Positions 20,062 to 39,211 of a stretch of 64,000 nt of DNA are shown piece by piece (positions within the stretch are counted from its first letter, which is position 1; the number at the start of each line of letters is the position of its first letter). The translations under genes and the position numbers were made by a program. Where the stretch lies: contig NZ_VVIW01000033.1 in assembly GCF_011682045.1 (NCBI RefSeq), forward strand, positions 1 to 64,000. Reading direction: 5' to 3'. This DNA is from Massilia aquatica (GTDB lineage Bacteria; Pseudomonadota; Gammaproteobacteria; Burkholderiales; Burkholderiaceae_D). Below the pieces are notes generated by a model. The model had not been told where the DNA came from and did not search any database. It was given only the letters and a program-made list of their open reading frames with translations.

Positions 20062-20832
20062 ATGCTTGCCCATCCACTCAAGATCGTCGCCAGCCTGGTT
20101 GCAGCCGGCCTGCTGGCCTGCGCACCCGCCCAGGCCGCCTATGGCAACGCTACCGCCAGCCTGAACAATATCAGGTTCGAGCTGATCGACCTGGACCTGA
20201 CCGACAACATCAGCCCGAGCATTACGTTCACCAGCACCAGCGCCAGCGGCCGCCTCACCTCCTACCCCTATCCCAGCGACAAGTACGATTTCGTTACGTC
20301 GTCCGGGTTCGAGAGCGTCGACAAGGTGTTCACCTACGGCGGCGGCAGCTTGAACAACGGTCCGGCCAGCATGCGCGCCGAGGTGCATCTCGGCCCGGCG
20401 CCACGCGCAGGGAGCTTGAACATGAGCGGTTCAACGACCCAGAACCTCAACTTCATCTTGTCGCCGTCGACCAGGCTGCTGTTCACGGCCGAGGCCAATG
20501 TGAATGTCCAGCAAGAAGGGATAACGCGACCGTACACCAGCGCCACCCTGAACGGCTATATGTCGAGCACGATCAATGGGGTAGCTGGCTACGAACATTT
20601 CACGTCCGCGCTGGAGGGCAGCGCGGGGGCGGGCAGCGAATTCCTGCGAGGCATGCTCGATAGCGGAACGGGCGTCGGGACCGGACAGCTGTCGGCCAGC
20701 ACCTATACCGACTTTAGCTATTACCCCTCCGCCGTGCCTGAACCGGAGACCTATGGCATGCTGCTGGCCGGCCTGCTGGTGGTGGGCGGCGTTGCACGCC
20801 GGAATCGGCGCGACAAGATTCGCAAGGCCTGA
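20062..20832 (+). CDS. PEP-CTERM sorting-domain protein, paralogue of the preceding gene
   Basis: A 256-aa exported protein beginning MLAHPLKIVASLVAAGLLA with a signal peptide ending near AQA-AYG. The sorting signal is VPEPETYGMLLAGLLVVGG followed by RRNRR. The first mature block LNNIRFELIDLDLTDNISP aligns with the preceding PEP-CTERM protein, and both have a FILSP(N/S)T motif mid-protein (EFILSPNTELILTA and NFILSPSTRLLFTA). This points to a tandem duplication with strong divergence. Spacing of 71 bp suggests co-transcription. Function unknown; likely cell-surface or biofilm matrix. Confidence 0.9.
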   Translation: MLAHPLKIVASLVAAGLLACAPAQAAYGNATASLNNIRFELIDLDLTDNISPSITFTSTSASGRLTSYPYPSDKYDFVTSSGFESVDKVFTYGGGSLNNGPASMRAEVHLGPAPRAGSLNMSGSTTQNLNFILSPSTRLLFTAEANVNVQQEGITRPYTSATLNGYMSSTINGVAGYEHFTSALEGSAGAGSEFLRGMLDSGTGVGTGQLSASTYTDFSYYPSAVPEPETYGMLLAGLLVVGGVARRNRRDKIRKA

Positions 20833-23472: not shown

Positions 23473-23608
23473 GTTTTTGCCAGGCTGTCCGCCAAGTTAA
23501 TGCTCTGGAGTAAGATGCCTTATCCGCCTCTTTTCCTGAGATGGCAGGAAACAAACTCGCTTATCATTGGCATATCAACGCCAAACCAGACTGAGGCACC
23601 GCTCCACC

Positions 23609-25222
<1,614 letters not shown>

Positions 25223-25257: not shown

Positions 25258-27960
25258 ATGAAAAAATCCGCTTTCACCGCCCCGCCCTCCCCCCTCGAGA
25301 TCGCCATGCAGCATCACCGGGCGGGACGGCTGGCGCAGGCGGAAGCGCTGTACCGCAAACTGGACGGCAAGGCCGAGGCCCTGCACCTGCTCGGCCTGCT
25401 CTGCCAGCAAAGCGGACGCCACGCCGAGGCCATCGACGCCTTAGGGCGCGCGATCGACAAGGAGCCTGGCCGCCCGGCCTATTATTTTGCGCTCGACCCC
25501 AGCTGCCGCGCCCTGGATCTGCTGCCCGAGCTGCAAGCGAGCTACGAGCGCCTCTTGAAACTGCTGCCGGACAACATCGAGGCCCACCTCCGGCTCGGCC
25601 ACGCCCTGCGCGACGGCGGCCAGTTGCCCAACGCCCTCGGCAGCTACCTGGCGGTGCTGGCCCTGCAACCGGAACACGCCGAGGCCTACAGCAACCTGGG
25701 CGACACCCTGAAACTGATGGGCAACCTGGACGAAGCGCAGGTCTGCTACGTCAAGGCGCTGGAAATCGACCCGCGCTTTGCCGAAGTGCACAACAACCTC
25801 GGCTCGCTATACCAGCAGCAGGAACAATGGGCGCTATCGGCCGAGCATTTCGAAGCGGCCGTGGCCTTGCAGCCCGACCTGGCGGCGGCCCACTACAACC
25901 TCGGCGTCACGCGCCAGCAGCAAGGCGCCCTGAGCGAGGCCCTGGTGTGCTACCAGCGCGCGCTCGGGCGCGATCCGCACCTGGCGCAGGCCTGCAACAA
26001 CATGGGCATCGTACTCAAGGAACTGGACCGGCTGGACGAGGCGATTGCCGCCTACCATGCGGCGCTGGCGCTGGCGCCCGACTTTGCCGAAGCGCTCAAC
26101 AACCTCGGCGGCGCCCTGCTCGAGCAGGAAAACATCGGTGGCGCTATCGACTGCTTCCAGCACGCAGTGACCGTCTCGCCCGGCTACGTCGAAGCGTATT
26201 GCAACCTCGGCATTGCCTACAAGGCCGGCTACCGGCTGGAAGAGGCGCTGGTCTGCTTTGAGAACGCCGTGCATTTGCAACCCGGCTACGCCGAGCCTTA
26301 CTCCATGCTGGCGCTCACCAACGCCGACCTCCAGCGTCACGTGCAAGCCTTGGCCTGGTGCGAAAAAACCCTGGCCCTGTGGCCCGACAGCCCCTCCGCC
26401 CACTTCAACCTGGGCGTGGCTTACGCCAACATGGACCGCCTGCCCGAGGCGGTGACCTGCTTCGAACAGGCGATCGTGCGCAATCCCGGGTTTGCGCACG
26501 CCTACAACAACCTCGGCGTGGCCAAGAACGACCTCGGCCGCTACGATGAGGCCGCCATCTGCTTCGAGACCGCGATCGGCTTGCGTCCGCGCTTTGCCGA
26601 AGCATTCAATAACCTCGGCACCACCTTGAAAAGCCAGGGCAAGCCGGACGCGTCGCGTCAGATGTTCGAGCAAGCCATTGCGCTCGCACCGGACTACGCG
26701 CAGGCCCACAACAACCTGCTGCTGTCGATGCAGTACGCGGCCGGCATCACCCAGGAACAATTGTTTCAGCTCCACCTGCGCTTCGCCGCCCAGTTCGAGC
26801 CAGCCCTGGCGCCGCAGCGCTTCACCCATGCGCCCGGCCGCGAGCCGGCCAAACGCCTGAAAATCGGCTACGTCTCGCCCGACTTCCGCCGCCACGCGGT
26901 GGCATTTTTCATCGAACCGATCCTGGCGCGCCACGACAAGGCGCAGGTCGAGGTCTTCTGCTACTACAGCCACGTCGTCAACGATGAGTTCACGGCGCGC
27001 ATCCGCGCAGACAGCGACCACTGGATCCCGTGCCGCGGCATGTCCGCCCAGCAGCTCGCCGAGCGCATCCACGCCGACGGCATCGACATTCTGGTCGACC
27101 TGGCCGGCCATACCTCCGGCAACCGCCTGCTGGCCTTCGCCCGCAAGCCGGCGCCGGTGCAGCTGACCTACATCGGTTACCCGTCCACCACGGGTCTCTC
27201 CACCATCGATTACCGCCTGACCGACCCGTGGGCCGAGCCGCCCGGCCAGAGCGAGCACGTCAACGTGGAAACCCTGTGGCGCCTGCCGGAAGTATTCTGC
27301 TGCTACGCCGCCCACGCCAACAGCCCGGCCGTGATCGACCATCCGCCGCTTGACGACAATGGTTACATCACCTTCGGCTGCTTCAACAATTACGCCAAGG
27401 TGAGCGATGCGGCCATCGTGCTGTGGGCCGCGATTCTCGCGCAGGTGCCCGAGTCGCGCCTGATGCTGGAAATCCTGGGCCTGGACAACCCCGGCATGCG
27501 TGAGGGCGTCGAGCAGCGCTTTGCGCGCCTCGGCATCAACCCGGCGCGCCTGGTCCTGATCGCCAACGACCGCAAGAACCAGTTCGTGCTGTACAACCGC
27601 ATCGACATCGCGCTCGACCCGTTCCCGTGCAACGGCGGCACCACCAGCTTCGATACCCTGTGGATGGGCGTGCCTTTTGTGACCCTGGCCGGGACTAACT
27701 TCATCTCGCGCCTGGGCGTGACCATCCTGCACAACGGCGGGCTGGACGAGCTGATCGGCGAGGACGAGGCGGCCTACGTACGCATCGCTACCGACCTGGC
27801 GCGCGATCCGGCGCGCCTGCGCCAGCTGCGCAGCGGCCTGCGCGAACGCACCCGCGCCAGTCCGCTGATGGACATGGCGCGCTTCACCCACCACCTGGAA
27901 CAGGCCTACCGCGGCATGTGGCAGCGCTGGTGCGACAGCGGCGACGGAGCCCCGGCATGA
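25258..27960 (+). CDS. TPR-containing O-GlcNAc transferase, SPINDLY family (GT41)
   Basis: A 900-aa cytosolic glycosyltransferase. At least twelve TPR units run from about residue 45 to 490 (recurring AEAYSNLGDTLK, AEVHNNLGSLY, AEAFNNLGTTLK patterns). The catalytic region starts near residue 535 with KRLKIGYVSPDFRRHAVAFF and carries VDLAGHTSGNRLLAFARKPAPVQ, YITFGCFNNYAKVSD and DPFPCNGGTTSFDTLWMGVPFV, hallmarks of bacterial OGT-like GT41 proteins. TPRs recruit the protein acceptor; the donor is a nucleotide sugar. It heads the nucleotide-sugar operon, overlapping rfbF by 4 bp, and the flagellin genes lie 7.5 kb downstream. The flagellins are its most likely acceptors, as inference. Confidence 0.92.
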   Translation: MKKSAFTAPPSPLEIAMQHHRAGRLAQAEALYRKLDGKAEALHLLGLLCQQSGRHAEAIDALGRAIDKEPGRPAYYFALDPSCRALDLLPELQASYERLLKLLPDNIEAHLRLGHALRDGGQLPNALGSYLAVLALQPEHAEAYSNLGDTLKLMGNLDEAQVCYVKALEIDPRFAEVHNNLGSLYQQQEQWALSAEHFEAAVALQPDLAAAHYNLGVTRQQQGALSEALVCYQRALGRDPHLAQACNNMGIVLKELDRLDEAIAAYHAALALAPDFAEALNNLGGALLEQENIGGAIDCFQHAVTVSPGYVEAYCNLGIAYKAGYRLEEALVCFENAVHLQPGYAEPYSMLALTNADLQRHVQALAWCEKTLALWPDSPSAHFNLGVAYANMDRLPEAVTCFEQAIVRNPGFAHAYNNLGVAKNDLGRYDEAAICFETAIGLRPRFAEAFNNLGTTLKSQGKPDASRQMFEQAIALAPDYAQAHNNLLLSMQYAAGITQEQLFQLHLRFAAQFEPALAPQRFTHAPGREPAKRLKIGYVSPDFRRHAVAFFIEPILARHDKAQVEVFCYYSHVVNDEFTARIRADSDHWIPCRGMSAQQLAERIHADGIDILVDLAGHTSGNRLLAFARKPAPVQLTYIGYPSTTGLSTIDYRLTDPWAEPPGQSEHVNVETLWRLPEVFCCYAAHANSPAVIDHPPLDDNGYITFGCFNNYAKVSDAAIVLWAAILAQVPESRLMLEILGLDNPGMREGVEQRFARLGINPARLVLIANDRKNQFVLYNRIDIALDPFPCNGGTTSFDTLWMGVPFVTLAGTNFISRLGVTILHNGGLDELIGEDEAAYVRIATDLARDPARLRQLRSGLRERTRASPLMDMARFTHHLEQAYRGMWQRWCDSGDGAPA

Positions 27961-28730
27961 AAGCGGTCATCCTGGCCGGCGGTCTGGGCACGCGGATTCT
28001 GGAAGAAAGCCACCTGAAACCGAAACCGATGATCGAAATCGGCGGTAAACCCATGCTCTGGCACATCATGAAAGTGTTCTCGCACCACGGCGTGAACGAA
28101 TTCATCATCTGCGTCGGCTACAAGGGTTACCTGATCAAGGAATTCTTTTCCAACTACTTCCTGCACATGTCGGACGTCACCTTCGACATGCAGAACAACC
28201 GCATGGAAGTGCACGAACGGCACGCCGAACCATGGCGCGTGACCCTGGTCGACACCGGCGCCGACACCCTCACCGGCGGACGCCTGAAACGCGTGCGCGA
28301 ATACCTGGAACCGGGCCAGCCCTTCTGCTTCACCTACGGCGACGGCGTGGCCGACATCGACATCGCGGCCGAAATCGCCTTTCACCGCGCGCACGGGCGC
28401 CTGGCCACGGTGGCCGCCGTGCAGCCGCCCGGCCGCTACGGCGCGCTGGTGCGCCAGGGCGACGCCGTCACCGCCTTCATGGAAAAACCGCAGGGCGACG
28501 GCGGCTGGATCAATGGCGGCTTTTTCGTGCTGCAACCGGACGTGGTCGACCTGATCGACGGCGACGATTGCAGCTGGGAAGTCGAACCCATGCAGGCGCT
28601 GGCCGCGCAAAACCAGTTGATGGCCTACGAACACGCCGGCTTCTGGCAACCGATGGACACCCTGCGCGAAAAGAACCTGCTGGAAGACATGTGGCAGTCC
28701 GGCACGGCGCCATGGAAGCTGTGGGCGTGA
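27957..28730 (+). CDS. rfbF: Glucose-1-phosphate cytidylyltransferase
   Basis: Makes CDP-glucose from CTP and glucose-1-phosphate. It is 257 aa, the standard length. The nucleotidyltransferase signature MKAVILAGGLGTRILEES starts the protein, followed by PKPMIEIGGKPMLWHIMKVF and the family-specific EFIICVGYKGYLIKEFF and YFLHMSDVTFDM. FTYGDGVADIDI holds the metal-binding aspartate. It overlaps the OGT by 4 bp (ATGA) and the next gene by 4 bp (GTGA), so translation is coupled. It supplies the first step of the CDP-deoxysugar pathway encoded here. Confidence 0.95.
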   Translation: MKAVILAGGLGTRILEESHLKPKPMIEIGGKPMLWHIMKVFSHHGVNEFIICVGYKGYLIKEFFSNYFLHMSDVTFDMQNNRMEVHERHAEPWRVTLVDTGADTLTGGRLKRVREYLEPGQPFCFTYGDGVADIDIAAEIAFHRAHGRLATVAAVQPPGRYGALVRQGDAVTAFMEKPQGDGGWINGGFFVLQPDVVDLIDGDDCSWEVEPMQALAAQNQLMAYEHAGFWQPMDTLREKNLLEDMWQSGTAPWKLWA

Positions 28731-29794
28731 ACGAGATGGACGCACTCGCGCACGCTTTTCACGGGCGGCGCGTGTTCGTCACCGGCCACACCGGCTTCAA
28801 GGGCGCCTGGCTGTGCCTGTTCCTGGCGCGCCTGGGCGCGCGCGTGACCGGCTACGCGCTGGCGCCGTCCGGCACGCCGACCATGTTCGGCTTAGCCCGC
28901 GTGGGCGAGACCCTGGAGCGCCACCACATCGGCGACGTGCGCGACCAGGCCAGCCTGAGCGCCGCCATGACCCAGGCCGCGCCCGAACTGGTGCTGCACC
29001 TGGCGGCCCAGGCGCTGGTACGGCACAGCTACGCCGATCCGGTGGCGACCTGGTCGACCAATGTGATGGGCACCGTGCACGTGCTCGAAGCGCTGCGCGC
29101 CTGCCCGAGCGCACGCGCCGCCTTGGTGGTGACCACCGACAAATGCTACGACAACCAGCACTGGCCCTGGGGCTACCGCGAAAACGACCGCCTCGGCGGG
29201 CATGACCCGTACAGCGCCAGCAAGGCCGGCGCCGAACTGGTGGCGCACAGCTACCGCAGCAGCTTTTTTGCCGATGGCGGCCCGCTGATCGCCACCGCGC
29301 GCGCCGGCAACGTGATCGGCGGCGGCGACTGGAGCGCGGACCGCCTGATTCCCGACGCCGTGCGCGCCATGCAGCAAGGCAGCGCCTTGCCGGTGAGAAG
29401 TCCCAACGCCACCCGCCCCTGGCAGCACGTGCTCGAACCGCTGCACGGCTACCTGCTGCTGGCCGCGCGCCTGCTCGCTGGCGACGCCGCCTGCGCCGGC
29501 CCCTGGAACTTCGGCCCCGACGCCGCCGACAACCTGTCGGTCGCGACCTTGTTAAATGGTTTGCAAAGCCACTGGCCGCAGCTGCAATGGCGCCTCGACG
29601 GCGAACAGCATGCCGCCAGGGAAGCCGCCCTGCTCTACCTCGATTCGAGCAAGGCGCGCCACGAGCTCGGCTGGCAGGTGCGCTGGCCGCTGGCGACCGG
29701 CATTGAACAGACGGCCGCCTGGTATGCGGCGGCGCACGACTGCGCCGACATGCGCGCCTTTACCGAACAGCAACTGGAGCATTTCTGCGCATGA
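28727..29794 (+). CDS. rfbG: CDP-glucose 4,6-dehydratase
   Basis: About 355 aa. Converts CDP-glucose to CDP-4-keto-6-deoxyglucose. It has a Rossmann NAD motif GHTGFKGAW, VLHLAAQALVRHSYADP, the catalytic TTDKCYDNQHW segment, and the active-site YSASKAGAEL. RAGNVIGGGDWSADRLIPD is typical of the family. Two starts are possible: GTG 28727, overlapping the rfbF stop, or ATG 28736. The GTG is preferred for the overlap pattern seen throughout this operon. The product is the branching point for the C-methyltransferase and epimerase that follow. Confidence 0.94.
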   Translation: MNEMDALAHAFHGRRVFVTGHTGFKGAWLCLFLARLGARVTGYALAPSGTPTMFGLARVGETLERHHIGDVRDQASLSAAMTQAAPELVLHLAAQALVRHSYADPVATWSTNVMGTVHVLEALRACPSARAALVVTTDKCYDNQHWPWGYRENDRLGGHDPYSASKAGAELVAHSYRSSFFADGGPLIATARAGNVIGGGDWSADRLIPDAVRAMQQGSALPVRSPNATRPWQHVLEPLHGYLLLAARLLAGDAACAGPWNFGPDAADNLSVATLLNGLQSHWPQLQWRLDGEQHAAREAALLYLDSSKARHELGWQVRWPLATGIEQTAAWYAAAHDCADMRAFTEQQLEHFCA

Positions 29795-31032
29795 GCACGC
29801 CCGCCCGAGAATGCCGCGCCTGCGGCGCAGCGCTGCACCACAGTTTTGCCAACCTGGGCATCTCGCCCGTGTCGAACGCCTTTGTCGAACCTGAAAAGGC
29901 GGCCGAGGGCGAAATGTTCTATCCGCTGCACGCCATGGTGTGCGCCGAATGCTGGCTGGTGCAACTGGCCGACGCCACCCGCGCCGAGCTGCATTTCCAC
30001 GCCAACTACGTGTATTTTTCCTCGTTTTCCAGCAGCTGGCTGGCGCACGCGCGCGCCTACGTGGAACAGATGACGGCGCGCCTGCATCTGGACTCCTCCA
30101 GCCGCGTGATGGAAATCGCCAGCAACGACGGCTATCTGCTGCAATACTTTCAGCAAGCCGGGATTCCCTGCATCGGCATCGAGCCGAGCGGCAACACGGC
30201 GGCGGCGGCGCGCGCGCGCGGCGTCGACACGCGCGAACTGTTCTTCAACCGCGCCAGCGCCAGCGCGCTGGCGGCGCAGGGCGAACAGGTCGACCTTTTA
30301 CTGGGCAACAACGTGCTGGCCCACGTGCCCGACCTGCACGATTTCGTCGGCGCCATGCCGGCCGTGATGAAACCGCATGCCGTGCTCACGCTGGAATTCC
30401 CCCACCTGCTGCGCCTGGTCGCCGACCAGCAGTTCGACACGATTTACCACGAACACTATTCCTACCTGTCCCTGACCGCCCTGATGCCCGTCTTCGCGCG
30501 CGCCGGCCTGCGCGTGTTCGACATTGAGCATTTGCCCACCCACGGCGGCAGCCTGCGCGTGCATGCGTGCCTGCAAGCGGCGGCGCACGCCACCACGGCG
30601 CAGGTCGCCGCCTGCCTGGAACAGGAACAGGCAGCCGGTCTTATGCGCCTGGACACTTACACCGGCTTTGGCGAGCGCATGCGCGCCACCAAGCGCGCGC
30701 TGCAACGTTTTTTGATCGACGCCAAAGACCAGGGCAAATCCATCGCCGCCTACGGCGCCGCCGCCAAGGGCAACACCCTGCTCAACTATTGCGGCATCGG
30801 CGCCGACATCATCGACTACGTGGTCGACAGCAACCCCGCCAAACAAGGCCGGCTCTTGCCCGGCAGCCGCATTCCGGTGCGCGCGCCGGACGCCGTCTTC
30901 GACACGCGTCCCGACTACCTCTTGATCCTGCCATGGAACATCAAGGATGAACTGATGGCGCAAATGGCCGGCATCCGCGACTGGGGCGGACAATTCCTGC
31001 TGGCCAATCCGCGCATCCACGTGGTGGCCTGA
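29791..31032 (+). CDS. SAM-dependent sugar C-methyltransferase (TylCIII/NovU type)
   Basis: A 413-aa enzyme with the three-part architecture of sugar C-methyltransferases. An N-terminal zinc-binding domain has paired cysteines (CRACG at about residue 8 and CAEC at about 51). A central SAM-binding methyltransferase follows (VMEIASNDGYLLQYF, LLLGNNVLAHVPD). The C-terminal domain contains HEHYSYLSL, HGGSLRV and SIAAYGAAAKGNTLLNYC. Characterised members add methyl groups to C-3 or C-5 of 4-keto-6-deoxy nucleotide sugars. With rfbF and rfbG upstream and an epimerase downstream, a CDP-linked C-methyl-branched 6-deoxyhexose is the likely product. The methylated carbon cannot be told from sequence. 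Confidence 0.9.
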   Translation: MSTPARECRACGAALHHSFANLGISPVSNAFVEPEKAAEGEMFYPLHAMVCAECWLVQLADATRAELHFHANYVYFSSFSSSWLAHARAYVEQMTARLHLDSSSRVMEIASNDGYLLQYFQQAGIPCIGIEPSGNTAAAARARGVDTRELFFNRASASALAAQGEQVDLLLGNNVLAHVPDLHDFVGAMPAVMKPHAVLTLEFPHLLRLVADQQFDTIYHEHYSYLSLTALMPVFARAGLRVFDIEHLPTHGGSLRVHACLQAAAHATTAQVAACLEQEQAAGLMRLDTYTGFGERMRATKRALQRFLIDAKDQGKSIAAYGAAAKGNTLLNYCGIGADIIDYVVDSNPAKQGRLLPGSRIPVRAPDAVFDTRPDYLLILPWNIKDELMAQMAGIRDWGGQFLLANPRIHVVA

Positions 31033-31589
31033 TGCGATTCACCCCGACAGCGCTGGCCGGCGCTTTTCTCATCGACATCGCCCCGGTCGAAGACGAACGC
31101 GGCCTGTTTGCGCGCACCGTGTGCGACGACGAATTCGCGCGGCACGGTCTGGTGGGGCGCTTCGTGCAGCAAAGCGTGTCGTGGAACCCGTACGCCGGCA
31201 CCTTGCGCGGCTTGCACTTCCAGATGACGCCGCATCAGGAAATCAAGCTGGTGCGGGTCACGCGCGGCGCTGTGTTTGATGCCATCGTCGACCTGCGGAC
31301 GGATTCGCCCACCTACGGCAAGACGTTCCACACCGAGCTGTCGGCCGCGAACCGGCGCCAGCTGTACATTCCCGCCGGCATGGCGCACGGTTTCCAGAGC
31401 CTGCAAGCCGATACCGAAGTCCTCTACCAGATGAGCACGCCGTTCAATCCCGCCTCGGCGCGCGGCCTGCGCTGGGACGATGCGGCGCTGGCGATTCCCT
31501 GGCCGGCGTGCCGCGAACGGATCATGTCCGGGCGCGACCGCAGCCTGCCGCTGCTGCACCAACTGCCCGCCCCTGACTCCCTAGCCTGA
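31032..31589 (+). CDS. Nucleotide-sugar 3,5-epimerase (RmlC/RfbC-like)
   Basis: A 185-aa cupin-type epimerase. RmlC features are present: EDERGLFARTVCDDEFARHG, QQSVSWNPYAGTLRGLHFQ (catalytic His in RGLHFQ), KLVRVTRGAVFDAIVDLR (catalytic Asp), YIPAGMAHGFQSL, and the tyrosine in VLYQMSTPFNP. Its start codon overlaps the stop of the C-methyltransferase by 1 bp. In a CDP operon it probably epimerises C-3 or C-5 of the methylated 4-keto sugar rather than making dTDP-rhamnose, since no rmlA, rmlB or rmlD is present. Confidence 0.92.
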   Translation: MRFTPTALAGAFLIDIAPVEDERGLFARTVCDDEFARHGLVGRFVQQSVSWNPYAGTLRGLHFQMTPHQEIKLVRVTRGAVFDAIVDLRTDSPTYGKTFHTELSAANRRQLYIPAGMAHGFQSLQADTEVLYQMSTPFNPASARGLRWDDAALAIPWPACRERIMSGRDRSLPLLHQLPAPDSLA

Positions 31590-31601
31590 TTGGACGCTGA
31601 C

Positions 31602-32660
31602 ATGGACCCGACAAAACTGCTTGCTTCCCTTGGCATGATCGCCGCCCGGCCCGCATGGCGCGACGCCTTCCTCGAGCACCTGCTGCAATTCGAGCGCACG
31701 ATTGCGACCGCCGGCATCGACGTGCGCGAAGAGGTGATCGGCCCCCTGGTCGACGCGCTCTACGACGACGACCAGATCGTCAGGAAAGAGCTGGCCGACG
31801 GCACCCGCCTCGATTTCCTGTACCGCTCCAAAATCGCGCGCGACTTCCTGCTCTCGGCGCCGGCGAAGCCGGATCATGCCTGGGAGCCGCAAACCTCGCG
31901 CCTGCTGGTCGAGCTGGCCGCCAACGCGCGCCAGATCGTGGTCGGCGGGGCCTATTTCGGCGACCAGGCGATCCTGCTGGCGCAACAGGCCGCGCGCCAC
32001 CAGGGCACGGTGCACGCCTTCGAGCCGAATGACGAGCAGCGCCGCATGCTGATCCACAACGCCGCCCTGAACGGCCTGGACAACATCGCAGCCCGTCCCG
32101 AAGGCCTGTGGGACGACAGCGCGACCACCCTGAAACTGGTCGGCTACGACTCGTTTGCCCATCCCGAAGTGAGCGACGACGCCAGCGGTTTTCGCACCAC
32201 CACGGTGAAGGACTATCTGGACGGCGCCGGCATCGACCGGCTGGACCTGATCATGCTCGACATCGAAGGCGCGGAATTGCGCGCCCTGCGCGGCGCGGCC
32301 AGCTATCTGGCGCTGCCGGCGGGACACGCGCCGGACATCGTGTTCGAAGTGCACCGCGACTACGTGGACTGGAGCGCGGGCCTGGAAAACACCGACATCG
32401 TGCGTTTTTTGCAGGAGCACGGCTACCAGGTGTTCGCCGTGCGCGACTTCAATTCCAACGTCGACATGGAAGGCAAGCCGATCGAACTGATTCCGGCCGC
32501 GGCGGTGTACCTGGAAGGGCCGCCGCACGGCTTCAACATGGTGGCGGTCAAGGACGCGGCGCGCTTTGCCGAGCTGCCCTACAAGATCTGCCAGCATGTC
32601 AGCCCCAAGCTGCTGCGCCACAAGGATCCGGCGCTGCACCACCCGACCGATGGCCTGTAG
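31602..32660 (+). CDS. FkbM-family methyltransferase
   Basis: About 352 aa from ATG 31602; a TTG at 31590 is the alternative. The FkbM-type SAM fold is seen in ARQIVVGGAYFGDQAILLAQ (glycine motif), HAFEPNDEQRRMLIHNAALN, and TTVKDYLDGAGIDRLDLIMLDIEGAE with DIEGAELRAL characteristic of FkbM. Members O-methylate sugars or polyketides. The first 90 residues, before the SAM core, are not recognised and may bind the acceptor. Being in this operon, it likely O-methylates the deoxyhexose or the assembled glycan. Confidence 0.9.
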   Translation: MDPTKLLASLGMIAARPAWRDAFLEHLLQFERTIATAGIDVREEVIGPLVDALYDDDQIVRKELADGTRLDFLYRSKIARDFLLSAPAKPDHAWEPQTSRLLVELAANARQIVVGGAYFGDQAILLAQQAARHQGTVHAFEPNDEQRRMLIHNAALNGLDNIAARPEGLWDDSATTLKLVGYDSFAHPEVSDDASGFRTTTVKDYLDGAGIDRLDLIMLDIEGAELRALRGAASYLALPAGHAPDIVFEVHRDYVDWSAGLENTDIVRFLQEHGYQVFAVRDFNSNVDMEGKPIELIPAAAVYLEGPPHGFNMVAVKDAARFAELPYKICQHVSPKLLRHKDPALHHPTDGL

Positions 32661-32664
32661 CCCG

Positions 32665-33507
32665 ATGACGGCGCAGCCTGCCATCACCTACACCGTACTC
32701 GGCGCGGACGGTTTCGTCGGCCGGCGCCTGGCCGAGCACCTGCGCGCCGCCGGCCATGCCGTGTATGCGCCGGCGCGTGGCGATCCGGCCCTGTTCCAGC
32801 GCGCGCTGGGGCGCGTGATCTATTGCGCCGGCCTGACCGCCGACTACGCCCTGCGCCCCTTCGACACGGTCCAGGCCCATGTCGGCCTGCTGGCCAAGGT
32901 GCTGCAGGAAGCGCGCTTCGAGCACCTGGTGTACCTGTCCTCCACCCGCCTGTACGACAGCCTGGGCGCACACGCGGGCGTGCCGGTGGACGAGCACGCG
33001 GCGCTGCTGCTCAATCCGCACGAGGCGCGCCATCTGTACGACCTGTCCAAAGCCCTGGGCGAAAACCTGTGCCTGCACGCGGCAGATGGACGCGCCGCCG
33101 TTGCGCGCCTGGCCTGCGTATACGACTGGTCGCCAGGGGCGCCGGGCTTTTTGTCGGACTGGCTGCAACGCGCCATGCGCGCCAAAACCCTGCACCTCGA
33201 CTCATCGGGCGGCGTGGTACGCGACTACATCCACCTCGACGACGTGGTCGCCGCGCTCGCCGCCATGGCGGCCCGGTGCAGCAGCGGCGTGGTCAACGTG
33301 GCCAGCGGCGAGCAGGTGTCGAACGCCGAACTGGCGCAGGTATTCCGGCGCCACGGCTGGTCGGTGAACCTGGCGCGCGACAGTGCGCGCGAACATCCGG
33401 CGCCCTGCACCGTGGAACGGCTGGCGCAACTCGGGGTCACGCCACGCCCGGTGCGCGCGGTCGTCGAATACTGTCTCGGCACGGAGGCGTGGCGTGCGGC
33501 TGATTGA
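32665..33507 (+). CDS. NAD-dependent epimerase/dehydratase or 4-ketoreductase (SDR)
   Basis: A 280-aa extended SDR. The nucleotide-binding motif is TVLGADGFVGRRLAEHLR (GxxGxxG). VIYCAGLTADY and HLVYLSSTRLYDS hold the central region with the catalytic serine, and the YxxxK motif is YDLSKALGE. RDYIHLDDVVAAL is the usual sugar-SDR downstream block. The start ATG 32665 lies four bases after the FkbM stop. As no other reductase is in the operon, this is the best candidate for the final 4-keto reduction of the CDP sugar. Confidence 0.85.
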   Translation: MTAQPAITYTVLGADGFVGRRLAEHLRAAGHAVYAPARGDPALFQRALGRVIYCAGLTADYALRPFDTVQAHVGLLAKVLQEARFEHLVYLSSTRLYDSLGAHAGVPVDEHAALLLNPHEARHLYDLSKALGENLCLHAADGRAAVARLACVYDWSPGAPGFLSDWLQRAMRAKTLHLDSSGGVVRDYIHLDDVVAALAAMAARCSSGVVNVASGEQVSNAELAQVFRRHGWSVNLARDSAREHPAPCTVERLAQLGVTPRPVRAVVEYCLGTEAWRAAD

Positions 33508-34156
33508 CCATACGCAGGCCAGCCTGCTCGACTATACCTGCGCCCAGCTGGGCTGTTTTTTCCCCAGCGGCGATGGCGCCGCCCTGCGCCACCGGCTCGA
33601 ACGCCACCTGCCGCAGGCCCTCGAACGGCTGGCGCACTGCATCGACCGGGTGCGCATGTGGCAGAGCGGACAATTCAACTATCTGAATTCGAGCCAGTAC
33701 TGCCTGTATCTGTATTTCCTGGCCAATACCGTCTGGCGCGAAGAAGGCAGCGAGGAAGCGGTGGGCGCGGCGACGCGCCTGTTCCTCCTCAATAAAGCCT
33801 TGAACGGGATCGACCTGTTTTACGAGATCGCCATGCCGGAAGTATTTTTCATCGGGCACTCGGTCGGCATCGTGCTGGCCAAGGCAACGTACGGCAACTA
33901 TCTGGTGCTGTACCAAAATTCCACGGTCGGCAAGAACCACGGCGTGGCGCCGGTGCTGGGTGAAGGCGTGATTTTGTATCCCAACAGCGCCATCATCGGC
34001 CGCTGCCGGATTGGCGCCAACACCACGGTATCGCAAGGCACCGGCGTGATCAACCGCGACACGCCGGGCGACTGCCTGGTGTTCGCCGGCACGGCGGGCG
34101 AACTGACCATCAAAGCGGCCAAGCGGCCCCTGATCGACGACTTCTTCCGCTTCTGA
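33494..34156 (+). CDS. Left-handed beta-helix (hexapeptide) acyltransferase
   Basis: A 220-aa protein beginning at GTG 33494, inside the end of the SDR gene. GGAGG at 33483-33487 lies six nt upstream and fixes this start. The N-terminal 110 residues are helical (like serine acetyltransferase). The C-terminal part has hexapeptide repeats, from VFFIGHSVGIVLAKATYG to GEGVILYPNSAIIGRCRIGANTTVSQGTGVI. The histidine in GKNHGVAPVLGEG matches the acceptor-activating site of SAT-type acetyltransferases. It is the last gene of the operon. Acetylation of the sugar is inferred; serine acetyltransferase activity is less likely in this setting. Confidence 0.85.
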   Translation: MRLIDHTQASLLDYTCAQLGCFFPSGDGAALRHRLERHLPQALERLAHCIDRVRMWQSGQFNYLNSSQYCLYLYFLANTVWREEGSEEAVGAATRLFLLNKALNGIDLFYEIAMPEVFFIGHSVGIVLAKATYGNYLVLYQNSTVGKNHGVAPVLGEGVILYPNSAIIGRCRIGANTTVSQGTGVINRDTPGDCLVFAGTAGELTIKAAKRPLIDDFFRF

Positions 34157-34229
34157 AACATTTCTCGTTTGCTATTGGCGTACAATCGCTGGCCCGGCGC
34201 GAAGCGCGCCAACGACGAGCTGAAAAACA

Positions 34230-34697
34230 ATGAAGACGATTAACGGAGACCTGCTCCAGCTTGCGCTCGATGGCAACTTCGACGTCATCGTGCACGGCTG
34301 CAACTGCCAGTGCCAGATGGGCAAGGGCATTGCGCTGTCGATCAGACGGCTGTTTCCGGAAGCGTTCGCGGCCGACCAGTCGACCGCCAAAGGCGATGCC
34401 GGAAAACTTGGGACGATTTCTGTGGCGCACATCCAGCGGGATGGAAGAACATTCACCATTGTCAACGGTTACACCCAATGTCACTGGCGCGGCGACGGCA
34501 ACAAAGCCGATTACGCGGCCATCGCCGGTGTGATGAGAGAAGTCAAAAAACAATTCAAGGGCAAGCGAATCGGCTACCCCAAGATCGGCGCCGGTCTGGC
34601 GGGCGGCGATTGGGCGCGCATCGTTCCCATCATTGAAGAGGAACTGGCGGGCGAGGATCATACGTTCGTGGAGTTTGTTGCTGCCGCAAAAAGCTGA
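34230..34697 (+). CDS. Macro-domain (Appr-1''-p processing) protein
   Basis: A 155-aa single-domain protein that binds ADP-ribose derivatives. The start MKTINGDLLQLAL is typical. The phosphate-loop motif VHGCNCQCQMGKGIAL and the GYPKIGAGLAGGDWARI loop are seen; both shape the ADP-ribose site. Closest in look to the phage/ALC1-like macro domains that hydrolyse ADP-ribose-1''-phosphate or reverse ADP-ribosylation. It is 73 bp after the glycosylation operon with a small GC hairpin in between (GGCGCG at about 34196). A DarT-type ADP-ribosyltransferase is not adjacent, so it is not evidently a DarTG pair. Confidence 0.88.
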   Translation: MKTINGDLLQLALDGNFDVIVHGCNCQCQMGKGIALSIRRLFPEAFAADQSTAKGDAGKLGTISVAHIQRDGRTFTIVNGYTQCHWRGDGNKADYAAIAGVMREVKKQFKGKRIGYPKIGAGLAGGDWARIVPIIEEELAGEDHTFVEFVAAAKS

Positions 34698-34708
34698 TCA
34701 TTTCCTAC

Positions 34709-34868
34709 CACCGGGGTCAGAGCTTTAATTAGCAACATTTCACAGTTTGTAGCGTTGACACGACAGCGATGTCCATTTTTCACCGCAGATGGCAGCGACA
34801 AGCAGGTGCGCCTGAGAGCAGCGGTTCCCGATGTCACAATGTTTCACTTTAAAGCTCTGACCCCGGTG
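34709..34868. mobile_element. 160-bp MITE-like element with 20-bp inverted ends
   Basis: A perfect 20-bp inverted repeat bounds this stretch: positions 34709-34728 (core GGGGTCAGAGCTTTAA) and its complement at 34849-34868. One more step outward CCTAC and CCTA keep pairing with a one-base slip. The 120-bp interior has no open reading frame of note. The GGGGTCAGAGC end resembles sequences flanking transposase genes in betaproteobacteria, so a non-autonomous relic is likely. No clear target duplication is seen. Confidence 0.6.
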
Positions 34869-34892
34869 TAGGGTGCCTGGGCAGCCATGCCA

Positions 34893-35193
34893 TCAGTCGG
34901 ACTTGAGCGCCTTGCCGGCAAACATCAACAGCCCCCATGGATCTCGGTCTTGCCCAATTGCGATTCGCAGAAGTCGAGCATCGCGCGCATGTGCTGATGA
35001 CGTCTTTCTGCGCCCCGGACAGTTCTGCATTCATGCCGAGCGTCTGCTGGCCGATCTTCACGCTCGTTGCCAGGGCGGGAGTACGGTATTTTTCCGGTAT
35101 GTCGGCATTGCGCAGATACGTCTGCCCCTCGCGGAGCGCGGCGTCGATCGCCGCGTACGATGTCAGGCCGGCCGGGATAAGCGCCGCGCTCAT
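34893..35193 (-). pseudogene. Decayed gene of unknown function, two frameshifts
   Basis: Three reading frames carry what reads as one protein. Starting at ATG 35193: SAALIPAGLTSYAAIDAALR...SGAQKDVI, then a shifted frame with HMRAMLDFCESQLGKTEIHGG, then LLMFAGKALKSD and stop at 34893. The second shift falls in a run of five cytosines (34932-34936), so sequencing error is possible there. Coding-like sequence extends upstream of the ATG to about 35270, before an in-frame stop, without a start codon (SELVSQPFDKLD precedes it). I do not recognise the family. The stretch from here to the macro-domain gene otherwise holds only the MITE-like element. Confidence 0.45.
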
Positions 35194-35298
35194 GTCGAGC
35201 TTGTCGAACGGCTGACTGACTAACTCGCTCTGCCCCCTGGCGCGCTGAAAGGCCGCGCGACGGCCCGAAAAAAGGCCGATATTTCGCCTTTTTTACCC

Positions 35299-35325
35299 TC
35301 AAGTTCTGGCGCAGGCTGCCGTCAA
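35299..35325 (+). promoter_or_regulatory. Sigma-28 (FliA) promoter of flagellin gene 1
   Basis: TCAAGTTC at 35299-35306, an 11-bp spacer, and GCCGTCAA at 35318-35325 fit the FliA consensus (TAAAGTTT-N11-GCCGATAA). Transcription would start near 35332, leaving a 5' leader of about 180 nt. An 8-bp inverted repeat (CCCTCAAG at 35296-35303 and CTTGAGGG at 35345-35352) flanks the promoter. Confidence 0.75.
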
Positions 35326-35510
35326 GCGCCGCGATCCCGCTCCGCTTGAGGGCTGAAATAAAAAATATACCTGCCTGATTTCATTAAACTTTCCGGCTGG
35401 TAACCCGTTACAAAAAAGGACTGCGGTGTGATTGTCCCGGACCGAAGGGGCAGACCAAAGCGAAGGCAAGTTGCCAACATGTATAAGTAGTATCTGCAAG
35501 GAGTAATACC

Positions 35511-36944
35511 ATGAGCGTAATCAACACCAACGTCGCATCGCTGAATGCACAACGCAACCTGAGCACCTCGGCTTCCGCACTGTCGACCTCGCTGCAGCGC
35601 CTCTCTTCCGGCCTGCGTATTAACAGCGCCAAAGACGATGCCGCCGGCCTGGCCATTTCGGAACGCTTCACGTCCCAGATCCGCGGCCTGGATCAGGCTA
35701 AGCGCAATGCCAACGATGGCGTGTCGATGTTGCAAACGGCTGAGGGTTCCCTGCAATCGACGGGCAACATTCTGCAGCGTGTACGTGAACTGGCTGTGCA
35801 GTCCTCGAATGCAACCAACTCCGCCGGCGACCGCAAAGCGATCCAGGCTGAGGTTGGCCAACTGTTGTCGGAAGCCGACCGTATCGCCCAGACCTCGGAA
35901 TTCAACGGCCTGAAACTGCTCGACGGCAGCTTCGGTACCGCCACCTTCCAGGTTGGCGCGAATGCCGGCCAGACCATCCAGGCAACGACTGCGAACTTCC
36001 GTACCAACAACTACGGTAACAACGAAGCGACCACCACGGCACCAGCGGCCGGCACCGCCTACACCGCCGGCAGTTTCGCCCTGCAAGGCCTGGCCACCAC
36101 CAACATCGCCGTCAGCGCCACCGACACGGCTCAATCGCTGGCCTCGACCATTAATGGCGCCACCGCGACCACCGGTGTCACGGCCCAGGCCAAGAACGAC
36201 GAATCGGCAACGTTCACCGCCGGCGGCGTGTACTCGCTGGCTGTCACCTCCGACAACAGCACCGCTGCCAACGTGACCTTCACCGTGGGCGCCGCACTGA
36301 ACGCCTCCGGCCTGGCGTCGGCTGTCAGCGCCTTCAATGACGTGTCCTCGAAGACCGGCGTTACCGCCAAACTGAACGATACCAATAATGGCCTGGTGCT
36401 GACCAACGCTGCCGGTAACAACATTACCGTCGCCAATAACAGCGCGTCAGCTGCGGTGAGCCTGACCGCCCTCGATGCCAACGGCGCCGCCTCCGGCGCT
36501 GCGGCGAACGTGGCCACCGGTGCGACCTCGACCTCGGTGGGTTATGTGTCGATGAACTCGGACAAGGGTTTCTCGGTCGGCACCAGCGGTTCCAACGCGA
36601 TCGCCGCCAGCACCGCCGCCACCCTCAATACCGTTTCCGGTATCGATGTGTCGACCGCCAAGGGCTCATCGCAAGCACTGAAAGTGCTGGACTCGGCCCT
36701 GGCCAACGTCAACAGCCAGCGCGCTTCGTTCGGCGCACTGCAGTCGCGCTTCGAAACCGCGGTCAGCAACCTGCAGTCGACTTCCGAAAACCTGTCTGCT
36801 TCGCGCAGCCGGATCCAGGATACCGACTTCGCTTCGGAAACAGCCAAACTGACGCGCGGCCAGATCCTCCAGCAGGCAGGTACCGCGATGTTGGCCCAGG
36901 CTAACTCGCTGCCGAACGGCGTGTTGTCCCTGCTGCGCGGTTAA
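35511..36944 (+). CDS. fliC: Flagellin 1
   Basis: A 477-aa flagellin. The conserved D0/D1 N-terminus (MSVINTNVASLNAQRNLSTS through IRGLDQAKRNANDGVSMLQ) and C-terminus (DSALANVNSQRASFGALQSRFE to QANSLPNGVLSLLRG) are complete. The central 200 residues are Ala/Thr/Ser-rich, without cysteine, and form the surface domain. AAGGAG lies 7 nt before the ATG. It differs from flagellin 2 at about 29 of 477 positions, mostly in the surface domain. The Ser/Thr-rich surface domain is a plausible substrate of the upstream O-glycosyltransferase. Confidence 0.97.
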   Translation: MSVINTNVASLNAQRNLSTSASALSTSLQRLSSGLRINSAKDDAAGLAISERFTSQIRGLDQAKRNANDGVSMLQTAEGSLQSTGNILQRVRELAVQSSNATNSAGDRKAIQAEVGQLLSEADRIAQTSEFNGLKLLDGSFGTATFQVGANAGQTIQATTANFRTNNYGNNEATTTAPAAGTAYTAGSFALQGLATTNIAVSATDTAQSLASTINGATATTGVTAQAKNDESATFTAGGVYSLAVTSDNSTAANVTFTVGAALNASGLASAVSAFNDVSSKTGVTAKLNDTNNGLVLTNAAGNNITVANNSASAAVSLTALDANGAASGAAANVATGATSTSVGYVSMNSDKGFSVGTSGSNAIAASTAATLNTVSGIDVSTAKGSSQALKVLDSALANVNSQRASFGALQSRFETAVSNLQSTSENLSASRSRIQDTDFASETAKLTRGQILQQAGTAMLAQANSLPNGVLSLLRG

Positions 36945-36970
36945 GCGCCAGCGTAACAAGCTCCTTGCAT

Positions 36971-36997
36971 CCCCGGCCGGCCTTAGGCTGGCTGGGG
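36971..36997 (+). terminator. Terminator-like hairpin after flagellin 1
   Basis: CCCCGGCCGGCC pairs with GGCTGGCTGGGG across a TTA loop: twelve pairs including two G-U. It ends 53 bp after the flagellin stop. No T-run follows, so it may slow or protect the 3' end more than terminate. Confidence 0.6.
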
Positions 36998-37123
36998 AAT
37001 ATCTTCCGAAGCGCAGGTCCTCGCAACAGCTTCTTGTTTCACATGCAACAAAATCGCGGCGCAATGCCCGGTTTCCGACTTCCTGGCCTCGTTCATGAGC
37101 GCCAAAAGAATTTTATTTTGCCC

Positions 37124-37150
37124 TCAAGTTCGGGAAAACGCTGTCGTCTA
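37124..37150 (+). promoter_or_regulatory. Sigma-28 promoter of flagellin gene 2
   Basis: TCAAGTTC at 37124-37131, 11-bp spacer, GTCGTCTA at 37143-37150. The -35 is identical to that of flagellin 1 while the -10 is weaker (GTCGTCTA against GCCGTCAA), suggesting lower expression. The flanking inverted repeat (CCCTCAAG at 37121, CTTGAGG at 37170) keeps the same 49-bp offset as in flagellin 1. Confidence 0.68.
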
Positions 37151-37337
37151 GCGCCTGGCTCCATCACGCCTTGAGGCCCAAAACAAAAAATATACACCCA
37201 AAATCCCCCTAAACTTTCCAGACCGCAATCCGTTACATATAAGGACTACGGTGTGATTGTCTCGGAACGAAAGGGGCACACCAAGGCGAACGGCACAGAG
37301 CCAACATGAATACAATGTAATTGCAAGGAGTACTACC

Positions 37338-38771
37338 ATGAGCGTCATCAACACCAACATCGCCTCCCTCAACGCACAACGCAACCTGAGCACGTCCGGC
37401 TCCGGCCTGGCCACTTCGCTGCAGCGCCTGTCGTCCGGTTTGCGTATTAACAGTGCCAAGGATGACGCGGCTGGTCTGGCCATTTCGGAACGTTTCACGT
37501 CGCAGATCCGCGGCCTGGACCAGGCCCGGCGCAATGCCAACGATGGTGTGTCGATGCTGCAAACCGCTGAGGGCTCCCTGCAATCGACCGGTAACATCCT
37601 GCAACGTGTGCGTGAACTGGCTGTGCAGTCGTCCAACGCCACCAACTCGGCGGGCGACCGCAAGGCGATCCAGGCCGAAGTCGGCCAGCTGCTGTCGGAA
37701 GCCGACCGCATTGCCCAGACCTCGGAATTCAATGGACTGAAACTGCTCGACGGCAGCTTCGGCACCGCCACCTTCCAGGTGGGCGCGAACGCCGGCCAGA
37801 CCATCCAGGCAACGACTGCAAATTTCCGTACCAATAACTACGGCAACAACGAAGCGATCACTACCGCCCCGGCCACCGGCACCGCCTACACCGCCGGCAG
37901 TTTCGCCCTGCAAGGCCTGGCCACCACCACCATCGCCGTCAGCGCCACCGACACCGCCCAATCGCTGGCCTCGACCATCAATGGCGCCACCGCGACCACC
38001 GGCGTCACGGCCCAGGCCAAGAACGACGAATCGGCAGCGTTCGTCGCCGGCGGCGTGTACTCGCTGGCTGTCACCTCCGACAACAGCACCGCTGCCAACG
38101 TGAGCTTCACCGTGGGCGCCGCACTCAACGCCTCCGGCCTGGCATCGGCCGTCAGCGCCTTCAATGACGTGTCCTCGAAGACCGGCGTCACCGCCCGCCT
38201 GAACGATACCAATAGTGGCCTGGTGCTGACCAACTCTGCCGGTAACAACATTACCATCGCCAATAACAGCGCGTCCGCCGCGGTGACCCTGGGCGCTCTC
38301 GACGCCAACGGCGCCGCCTCCGGCGCTGCGGCATCGGTTGCCTCCGGTGCGACCTCGACCTCGGTGGGCTATGTGTCGATGAATTCGGACAAGGGCTTCT
38401 CGGTCGGCAGCAGCGGTTCGAACGCCATCAGCGCCGGCGCCGCCGCCACCCTCAACACCGTGGCCGTGATCGACGTCTCGACCGCCAAAGGCTCGGCCGA
38501 CGCACTCAAGATCCTCGACTCGGCCCTGGCCAACGTCAACAGCCAGCGCGCCTCGTTCGGCGCCCTGCAATCGCGTTTTGAAACGGCCGTCACCAACCTG
38601 CAATCGACGTCGGAAAACCTGTCTGCCTCGCGCAGCCGGATCCAGGATACCGACTTCGCTTCGGAAACCGCGAAACTGACCCGCGGCCAGATTCTGCAAC
38701 AGGCGGGTACTGCGATGTTAGCCCAGGCTAACTCCCTGCCAAACGGCGTGTTGTCCCTGCTGCGCGGCTGA
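37338..38771 (+). CDS. Flagellin 2
   Basis: A second 477-aa flagellin, no indel relative to flagellin 1 and about 94 percent identical. The start ATG 37338 has AAGGAG 7 nt upstream. D0/D1 regions are nearly invariant (V8I, SASAL to SGSGL, K to R after GLDQA). Most changes lie in the surface domain, near residues 175-300 and 340-400. The duplication includes the promoter and the leader, so each copy has its own control. Two flagellins allow a mixed filament or phase-dependent antigen change; which dominates is unknown. Confidence 0.97.
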   Translation: MSVINTNIASLNAQRNLSTSGSGLATSLQRLSSGLRINSAKDDAAGLAISERFTSQIRGLDQARRNANDGVSMLQTAEGSLQSTGNILQRVRELAVQSSNATNSAGDRKAIQAEVGQLLSEADRIAQTSEFNGLKLLDGSFGTATFQVGANAGQTIQATTANFRTNNYGNNEAITTAPATGTAYTAGSFALQGLATTTIAVSATDTAQSLASTINGATATTGVTAQAKNDESAAFVAGGVYSLAVTSDNSTAANVSFTVGAALNASGLASAVSAFNDVSSKTGVTARLNDTNSGLVLTNSAGNNITIANNSASAAVTLGALDANGAASGAAASVASGATSTSVGYVSMNSDKGFSVGSSGSNAISAGAAATLNTVAVIDVSTAKGSADALKILDSALANVNSQRASFGALQSRFETAVTNLQSTSENLSASRSRIQDTDFASETAKLTRGQILQQAGTAMLAQANSLPNGVLSLLRG

Positions 38772-38842: not shown

Positions 38843-39211
38843 ATGGAACTTCGCCCACTAGAGAACGCGCCGGCCGCTCTCCTGCCGCGCCCGGCAGCCC
38901 CCACCGAAGGCGCGGCCGCCAGCGCCAGGACGGCGCCGGCCGCCGCCCTCGGCAAGACCGAGCCCGCCAAAGAGGGGGCCGAGCCCGACCCGGCCGAAGT
39001 GACCAAGGTGGTCGACCGCATCAACGTGGCGATGCAGGCGCTGTCGCGCAATATCGAATTTTCGATCGACACCGACAGCAAGCGCACGGTGGTCAAGATC
39101 ATCGACCAGACCACCAAGGAAGTGATCCGCCAGATGCCCAGCGCCGAGGCGCTCGAAATCGGCAAGGCGCTGGAAAAAGTCCAGGGTTTGCTGATCAGCC
39201 AAGTTGCCTGA
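38843..39211 (+). CDS. flaG: FlaG family flagellar protein
   Basis: A 122-aa protein. The FlaG domain is in the last 75 residues: VDRINVAMQALSRNIEFSIDTDSKRTVVKIIDQTTKEVIRQMPSAE, closing with KALEKVQGLLISQVA. The N-terminal 45 residues are a low-complexity Ala/Pro linker. In polar flagellates FlaG affects filament length. It lies between the flagellin gene and fliD, its standard site. An SD-like AAAGG lies about 13 nt before the ATG. Confidence 0.92.
   Translation: MELRPLENAPAALLPRPAAPTEGAAASARTAPAAALGKTEPAKEGAEPDPAEVTKVVDRINVAMQALSRNIEFSIDTDSKRTVVKIIDQTTKEVIRQMPSAEALEIGKALEKVQGLLISQVA

Follow-up and report, generated by a model that had tools for sequence, protein, structure and literature searches.

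A GT41 glycosyltransferase in one operon with a CDP-3-C-methyl sugar cassette beside the flagellins of Massilia aquatica

The window analysed here is a stretch of 64,000 nucleotides from Massilia aquatica (contig NZ_VVIW01000033.1 of assembly GCF_011682045.1, positions 1 to 64,000). On its plus strand, at 25258-34156, eight genes join a glycosyltransferase of family GT41 to enzymes for a methyl-branched deoxysugar activated by cytidine diphosphate (CDP), and two flagellin genes follow downstream. This operon probably serves to decorate the two long flagellins, by O-glycosylation, with a vinelose-type sugar that comes from a CDP donor, a reading to which we give a probability of about two in three. 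It is drawn from the genes of the operon and their order, the conservation of both, the co-occurrence of the operon with flagellar genes and a residue pattern in the GT41 enzymes, each of which is described here.

Gene content and predicted product

With start codons chosen as the most likely, all eight genes run in the same direction and nearly all overlap. The first encodes a glycosyltransferase of the SPINDLY/OGT type with tetratricopeptide repeats (TPR), 900 residues in length (25258-27960; PF13844 198 bits against a cut-off of 25, TPR_1 270 bits, and many other TPR models). SPINDLY is its best solved chain (E 1.3e-82), and both pyrophosphate-contact residues, N662 and K665 in SPINDLY, are conserved in the alignment. 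A 4 bp overlap leads to RfbF, a glucose-1-phosphate cytidylyltransferase (27957-28730; TIGR02623 464 bits, cut-off 300), and a second one, also of 4 bp, to RfbG, a CDP-glucose 4,6-dehydratase that starts with the GTG at 28727 (28727-29794; TIGR02622 469 bits, cut-off 278). RfbG contains TDK...YSASK, and TDK...YxxxK is the fingerprint of the CDP-glucose enzyme (PMC8987622; this and the other papers given by PMC number are cited from excerpts).

The fourth gene, which overlaps rfbG by 4 bp, encodes a sugar 3-C-methyltransferase with Methyltransf_13 and Methyltransf_14 domains (29791-31032; PF08484 211.5 bits, PF08421 72 bits). It matches the solved mycarose 3-C-methyltransferase 4rv9 with an E-value of 3.1e-79, and among its 11 solved matches the ten strong ones are entries for mycarose 3-C-methyltransferase, 'Sugar 3-C-methyl transferase' or TcaB9, which we take to be a sugar 3-C-methyltransferase, while the eleventh is weak and generic. 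After an overlap of 1 bp comes an RmlC-type 3,5-epimerase (31032-31589; TIGR01221 165.5 bits, cut-off 155.75) that aligns with solved 3,5-epimerases; from its catalytic residues, compared by eye with the motif, it is likely a C5 or C3/C5 epimerase of a keto sugar. The only gap in the operon, 12 bp, separates it from an FkbM-family methyltransferase, probably acting on oxygen, with its ATG at 31602 (31602-32660; PF05050 52 bits, TIGR01444 58 bits). This gene overlaps by 11 bp that of a short-chain dehydrogenase/reductase (SDR), a probable 4-ketoreductase with YxxxK present and its ATG at 32650 (32650-33507; PF01370 69 bits), which in turn overlaps by 14 bp the last gene, for a hexapeptide acyltransferase of the EpsC/CysE kind beginning with GTG at 33494 (33494-34156). 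The acyltransferase is a weak match that misses every curated cut-off (NF041874 47 bits against 150, PF00132 25 bits against 27). Thus the CDP-glucose synthase and the CDP-type 4,6-dehydratase are both over their cut-offs, the 3-C-methyltransferase is assigned by family, and genes for an epimerase, a ketoreductase and an O-methyltransferase are all in the operon, each of putative specificity. The preliminary description of this locus, which had listed eight genes on one strand, most of them with overlaps of 1-14 bp, holds, and the gene families it named are borne out by Pfam and TIGRFAM profiles and by matches to solved structures.

From family membership and the RfbG fingerprint, RfbF and RfbG would convert glucose-1-phosphate to CDP-4-keto-6-deoxyglucose. 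The C-methyltransferase would place a methyl group on C3, the RmlC-type enzyme would invert C5 and perhaps C3, and the SDR would reduce the 4-ketone, with an O-methyl group presumably added by the FkbM protein and an acyl group by the product of the last gene, in an order and at positions that are likewise presumed. The predicted product is a CDP-6-deoxy-3-C-methyl-O-methyl-hexose, of the vinelose type and perhaps acylated. The GT41 enzyme, with Glu738 in its pocket, would take this CDP sugar as its candidate donor and transfer the sugar to Ser/Thr of the adjoining flagellins, its candidate acceptors, in the cytoplasm before export. For each modified site, the flagellin mass is computed to rise by +174.089 without acetyl and by +216.100 with acetyl.

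The likely acceptors, flagellin 1 (35511-36944) and flagellin 2 (37338-38771), both on the plus strand and 477 residues in length, carry PF00669 and PF00700 and share 448 of their 477 residues. Their central 249 residues consist of Ser and Thr to 28% and 27%, respectively. From 25258 to 38771, therefore, a glycosyltransferase and sugar-making genes stand beside flagellin in the arrangement of a flagellin glycosylation island. In the genome of 7.47 Mb (99 contigs), the operon GT41 is the only PF13844 protein and the operon RfbF the only TIGR02623 match over the cut-off; because the locus holds the only genes of these two kinds, and because the core order recurs in relatives, the arrangement is not due to chance.

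Co-occurrence with flagellar genes

The C-methyltransferase was searched in 392 genomes of the family at E <= 1e-60 and was found in 71; no genome had more than four candidates scored, so that a few negatives may be misses. A first, smaller sample had given 11 of 116. About 20 kb around it were then compared at one locus per genome, 70 besides that of the window, with weaker second matches in G497 and G564 omitted. Genes were called present by tblastn with the window proteins (E 1e-6), by which distant homologues may be missed. Of these 70 loci, 37 contain GT41 together with fliC or fliD as a flagellar gene, 4 contain only GT41, 2 only a flagellar gene and 27 neither of them. Thus 37 of the 41 GT41-bearing loci have a flagellar gene, in comparison to 2 of the 29 without GT41 (Fisher p ~6e-13, a test that treats genomes as independent, which relatives are not). 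Both orientations relative to each other occur, and the linkage extends to five genus groups (g1, 5/7 loci; g23, 4/5; g4, 1/1; g29, 1/1; g32, 26/29). None of the 19 loci of genus group g26 has the joint arrangement, and neither GT41 nor a flagellar gene is found there; in such loci (for example L155-L158) RfbF, RmlC and the C-methyltransferase form a triple, with the RfbG homologue on the opposite strand at a distance of several kb. The g26 cassette probably represents the use of a similar sugar in a polysaccharide.

Outside the family the cassette is widespread. In the class, 50 of 369 genomes matched the C-methyltransferase, that of M. aquatica included, and loci were taken from 40 of the 49 others, mostly the highest-ranking; G428 (a partial match) and the lower-ranked remainder were passed over. 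Neither GT41 nor flagellin is found in any of these 40 loci, an absence that is weak for several of them that lie on short contigs (L058 of 5.8 kb and L082 of 4.7 kb, for example). A search of named genomes gave at least 592 stretches, and among the 80 loci kept 76 have neither gene, 3 have GT41 only and 1 has both. L270 was scored without flagellin in this count and in the typing of tails described below, and a separate comparison shows a flagellin match of 35% there. The locus with both is that of Cupriavidus sp. D384 (L214), where the complete set of eight is accompanied by fliC, flaG, fliD and fliS matches; G111, G100 and G496 likewise have the complete set with flagellin. Besides this family, a small number of Pseudomonadales and Azotobacter-like genomes showed the union of GT41, flagellin and cassette. 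Since the cassette is widespread without GT41 and flagellin, it appears as a common surface-sugar module, of which the union with both is a narrower arrangement that arose when such a module was joined to flagellin. The synteny in 37 of 41 loci and the gene families support what had been proposed at the outset, that the operon builds an O- and C-methylated, possibly acetylated glycan linked to flagellin.

Conserved core and variable tails

The unit that is conserved among relatives comprises five genes, for GT41, RfbF, RfbG, the C-methyltransferase and RmlC, and the FkbM, SDR and acyltransferase genes are one of several tails. Tails were typed in 46 loci with GT41 and the C-methyltransferase, namely the 41 of the family together with L214, L265, L270, L310 and L311; L220, with GT41 about 10 kb from the cassette, was left aside. 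The most common tail is a CmcI O-methyltransferase with SDR and hexapeptide protein (19 loci), followed by aminotransferase and acyltransferase (7). Four loci each have FkbM with SDR and acyltransferase (the window being a fifth), aminotransferase with CmcI, or SDR with hexapeptide protein and acyltransferase; CmcI stands by itself in 3, an aminotransferase by itself in 2, SDR with hexapeptide protein in 1, and 2 have no tail. Pfam searches on example loci back the assignments of DegT aminotransferase, GNAT, formyltransferase, hexapeptide and CmcI proteins. Judging from these families, the 4-ketone seems to have two fates, reduction, in many cases along with O-methylation, or amination, in many cases along with acylation, and the window would belong to the first kind. 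Together with the GGDEF gene upstream, which recurs in relatives (see below), this suggests one flagellar neighbourhood of flagellin, GT41 and GGDEF genes where one sugar cassette can be swapped for another.

The base-contact residue of GT41

In SPINDLY, Lys689 holds the guanine, while human OGT (hOGT) has Leu866 at that position and Arg904 on the uracil (PMC10027727). Mapping by phmmer and MAFFT places Glu738 of the window GT41 in the column of Lys689. The residue was compared in an alignment of 110 rows, in which the window GT41 is counted twice (as WINDOW and L118) and from which rows with a stop, without the base column (such as the cut GT41 of L188) or nearly identical to others were dropped. 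For comparison, a search covered 40 genomes that have GT41 and lack the C-methyltransferase, and the best-matching sequence was taken from 30 of them (23 of these loci were new), so that second copies are mostly unseen. Glu, Asp or Asn occupies the base column in 41 of the 43 rows lying within 2 kb of RfbF. Where the genome or locus has the C-methyltransferase, 56 of 71 rows carry one of these residues; none of the 39 rows from 35 genomes without it does. Where GT41 enzymes with these residues lie away from a cassette (G043, G608, G626, G670), their genomes all hold the cassette elsewhere.

In a tree from a quick search, with the stretch around the base column excluded and SH-aLRT as the only support, these residues appear in three places: the Glu clade of the window (13 of 15 rows), an Asp/Asn clade (42 of 43) and the Cupriavidus enzyme of L214, which sits on a long branch in an unsure position. 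The occurrence of Glu, Asp or Asn beside the cassette fits a CDP donor. The cytosine amino group could donate a hydrogen bond to a carboxylate or amide oxygen in this column. We hold a broader proposal only tentatively, with somewhat less than even confidence: that in bacterial GT41 enzymes Glu, Asp or Asn has more than once replaced the base-contact residue, which is Lys in SPINDLY and Leu in OGT, and has so turned them into CDP-sugar transferases, each time with a CDP-3-C-methyl cassette and mostly beside flagellin, and that CDP-vinelose exists to coat flagella.

CDP-vinelose and Azotobacter-like genomes

CDP-vinelose, the CDP derivative of 6-deoxy-3-C-methyl-2-O-methyl-L-talose, is an orphan nucleotide sugar that was reportedly isolated from Azotobacter vinelandii by Okuda and co-workers in 1967-68. 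The word 'vinelose' was not found in the literature searched, which leaves most subscription journals outside it. Synthesis of the compound would need CDP activation, 6-deoxygenation, 3-C-methylation, the L-configuration and O-methylation. If the cassette makes a sugar of this type, A. vinelandii is therefore expected to carry it. The genome of L270 carries OprF, and 148 genomes of its family were searched. The C-methyltransferase was found in 13 of them at E <= 1e-50 and AnfG/VnfG in 7; two (G818 and G779) have both. G818 has two AnfG/VnfG genes, a nitrogenase trait that fits A. vinelandii, which it most likely is.

Within 20 kb, G818 holds a flagellin gene, a GT41 gene and, on the opposite strand, RfbF-RfbG-RmlC-C-methyltransferase-hexapeptide-SDR-CmcI O-methyltransferase, followed on the cassette strand by a PhyH protein and a TylF-type methyltransferase. 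A single flagellin gene accounts for two separate matches and is truncated where the stretch ends, and the only TIGR02623 match over the cut-off in this genome lies at this cassette. The tail (CmcI, SDR and hexapeptide protein) is the same as in 18 g32 loci and differs from that of the window, which has FkbM rather than CmcI, an O-methyltransferase of another family, and an acyltransferase of a different kind. The GT41 protein (L310:1537-5310) has 1257 residues and is fused to a GT2 domain; the fusion suggests one protein that may attach one sugar and extend it with another. A GT41 of similar length, 1209 residues, lies at L311:13487-17116. G779 has an arrangement like that of G818.

Flagellar genes of A. 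vinelandii DJ include Avin_27640, 27650, 27700 and those from 27850 on (PMC4465626). Reading tag numbers as map positions puts these at about 2.85 of 5.37 Mb, roughly in keeping with the G818 locus. The presence in G818 of the cassette expected in the CDP-vinelose producer would fit the proposal, provided that G818 is A. vinelandii and that this species makes CDP-vinelose.

Weighing the alternatives

Several findings weigh against flagellin glycosylation with a vinelose-type CDP sugar. Two GT41 enzymes adjacent to the cassette carry Leu (L023) and Ser (L161) in the base column, and 13 further rows from cassette-bearing genomes or loci lack Glu, Asp or Asn. On the tree, no fewer than three changes are required to explain the residues in this column, perhaps a single gain with two losses, and a test on independent pairs cannot reach significance with so few independent changes; moreover, Asn does not separate cytosine from uracil as Glu or Asp would. 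Five of the seven AnfG/VnfG-bearing genomes have no match to the C-methyltransferase. In G818 and G779 the GT41 on the flagellin side has Lys at the base column and lies 8-10 kb from RfbF, and vinelose may in G818 be added by the GT2 domain or used elsewhere. In the family, 29 of 70 loci are without GT41, and the cassette therefore serves other glycans too. Finally, five of seven sister genomes in g1 have an aminotransferase and a GNAT acetyltransferase in place of FkbM and SDR, so that the sugar is not fixed even within a genus group.

It is unlikely that the GT41 enzyme uses an ordinary donor, such as UDP-GlcNAc or similar, with the CDP sugar added afterwards or used elsewhere. The named GT41 enzymes among the solved matches and in the SPINDLY paper do use uridine diphosphate (UDP) sugars or guanosine diphosphate (GDP)-fucose (PMC10027727), the window enzyme shares with hOGT a Cys in the Y744/C917 column, and the GT41 of the Azotobacter-like genomes is of the Lys type. 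However, the eight operon genes include no second glycosyltransferase, and the presence of Glu, Asp or Asn at the base column is associated with the cassette. Quite unlikely is a role of the cassette in an O-antigen, capsule or exopolysaccharide, to which the flagellins would be adjacent by accident. Its wide occurrence with neither gene (all 40 class loci, 76 of the 80 named loci kept and all 19 g26 loci) would suit this role, but 37 of the 41 GT41-bearing family loci have a flagellar gene within about 20 kb. The three genome matches to PF04932 (O-antigen polymerase/ligase) lie on contigs C13, C11 and C66 and none on the operon contig C26, and the 23 neighbouring frames scanned with Pfam, a selection of all frames, include no polysaccharide gene. 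For this locus the O-antigen explanation was dropped, given the flagellin synteny and a contig without a polymerase/ligase match. Operons far from flagellins and in polysaccharide loci, which the preliminary description had named as evidence against its own view, were found mainly in relatives without GT41, 27 of 29 such loci having no flagellar gene.

GT41 enzymes can have broad acceptors, and the operon might modify other proteins besides, or instead of, flagellins, which we regard as highly improbable. Several relatives have at least three consecutive GT41 genes, and four GT41-bearing family loci have no flagellar gene within about 20 kb; on the other side stand the synteny with flagellin, flaG and fliD and the precedent of FlmG, a TPR enzyme that modifies flagellins (PMC7591256). 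Rows of three to five GT41 genes were seen in L015, L016, L208, L209 and L212.

Neighbouring genes and the rest of the genome

Downstream of the flagellins, on the plus strand, lie flaG (38843-39211; PF03646), fliD (39334-41343; PF02465 and PF07195) and fliS (41366-41818; PF02561), all over their cut-offs. Upstream, 36 bp before the operon and on the same strand, is a GGDEF diguanylate cyclase gene (23567-25222; PF00990 143 bits), a conserved neighbour that is found within the same 20 kb or so in 35 of the 41 GT41-bearing family loci. In L211 and L213 a GGDEF gene also stands by flagellin and a Lys-type GT41, without the CDP cassette. Between the operon and the flagellins is a macro-domain gene (34230-34697; PF01661 37 bits, DarG model 68 bits against a cut-off of 250), which among the 70 family loci has matches only in L148 (90% identity) and L149 (95%).

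Elsewhere in the genome, flagellin-domain matches comprise six short ones and one weaker one on contig C33 and one weaker one on contig C7; the pair with the long central part of 27-28% Ser/Thr is the pair adjoining the operon. The six short genes stand in a row at C33:399597-405341, away from the operon, with open frames of 291-316 residues. Of the 23 neighbouring frames, 15 matched Pfam families (flagellar, regulatory, PEP-CTERM and TonB receptor) and 8 matched nothing. At 19109-20832, two open frames overlap in different reading frames with a PEP-CTERM motif in each, and two FliK-like hook-length proteins (PF02120) are encoded at 42178-43419 and 54458-55903. A scan of the window for the sigma-28 pattern gave 5 matches in comparison to 1.33 expected, the best at 39273-39299 before fliD and none before the operon. 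The scans for sigma-70 sites (0, with 1.5 expected) and terminators (15, with 11.8 expected) were uninformative.

Relation to known systems and significance

Flagellin glycosylation islands of Enterobacteriaceae include GT41 in fourteen of forty-two types, and island type 23, found in 4 strains, has genes for CDP-4-keto-6-deoxyglucose (PMC4875605). As in those islands, the locus sets a SPINDLY-type GT41 beside flagellin together with sugar-making genes, an FkbM methyltransferase and an acyltransferase, there FkbM methyltransferases and O-acetyltransferases (PMC4875605). In contrast to the window, the excerpts of that paper do not connect the CDP type with GT41, and derivatives of GlcNAc are proposed as the donor; the term 'c-methyl' is absent from its main text (PMC4875605). 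The window differs in uniting a CDP cassette, a 3-C-methyltransferase and GT41 in one operon. Since GT41 islands and a CDP-deoxyhexose type have already been described, the class itself is not new. No prior description of the C-methyl combination was found in the literature searched, which covers few subscription journals, the nearest being the excerpted island paper (PMC4875605). As far as this literature reaches, three things are new: the C-methyl CDP cassette with GT41 in one operon, the residue pattern at the base column and a connection to CDP-vinelose.

The C-methyltransferase belongs to the same family as those of the TcaB9 and mycarose pathways over nearly its full length. In these antibiotic pathways an epimerase and a reductase follow and the enzymes act on deoxythymidine diphosphate (dTDP) sugars, whereas the dehydratase of the window is of the CDP type. 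Pseudaminic acid is activated as a cytidine monophosphate (CMP) sugar. FlmG of Caulobacter is likewise a soluble enzyme with TPR and transferase parts that O-glycosylates flagellins in the cytoplasm, and it differs in using pseudaminic acid (PMC7591256). By analogy, FlmG may offer a precedent of a sort for a cytidine donor in a TPR flagellin transferase. SPINDLY of Arabidopsis is a GDP-fucose enzyme, and the window GT41 lacks its hallmarks, having Glu for Lys689 and Cys for Tyr744, with Leu for Ala731 (PMC10027727).

If flagellin glycosylation with a vinelose-type CDP sugar is true, CDP-activated methyl-branched sugars would join the GT41 donors, which among the enzymes compared are UDP sugars and GDP-fucose. 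The nucleotide used by a bacterial GT41 could then be read from nearly a single residue. In addition, CDP-vinelose would gain both its genes and a purpose, which would be testable in Azotobacter vinelandii.

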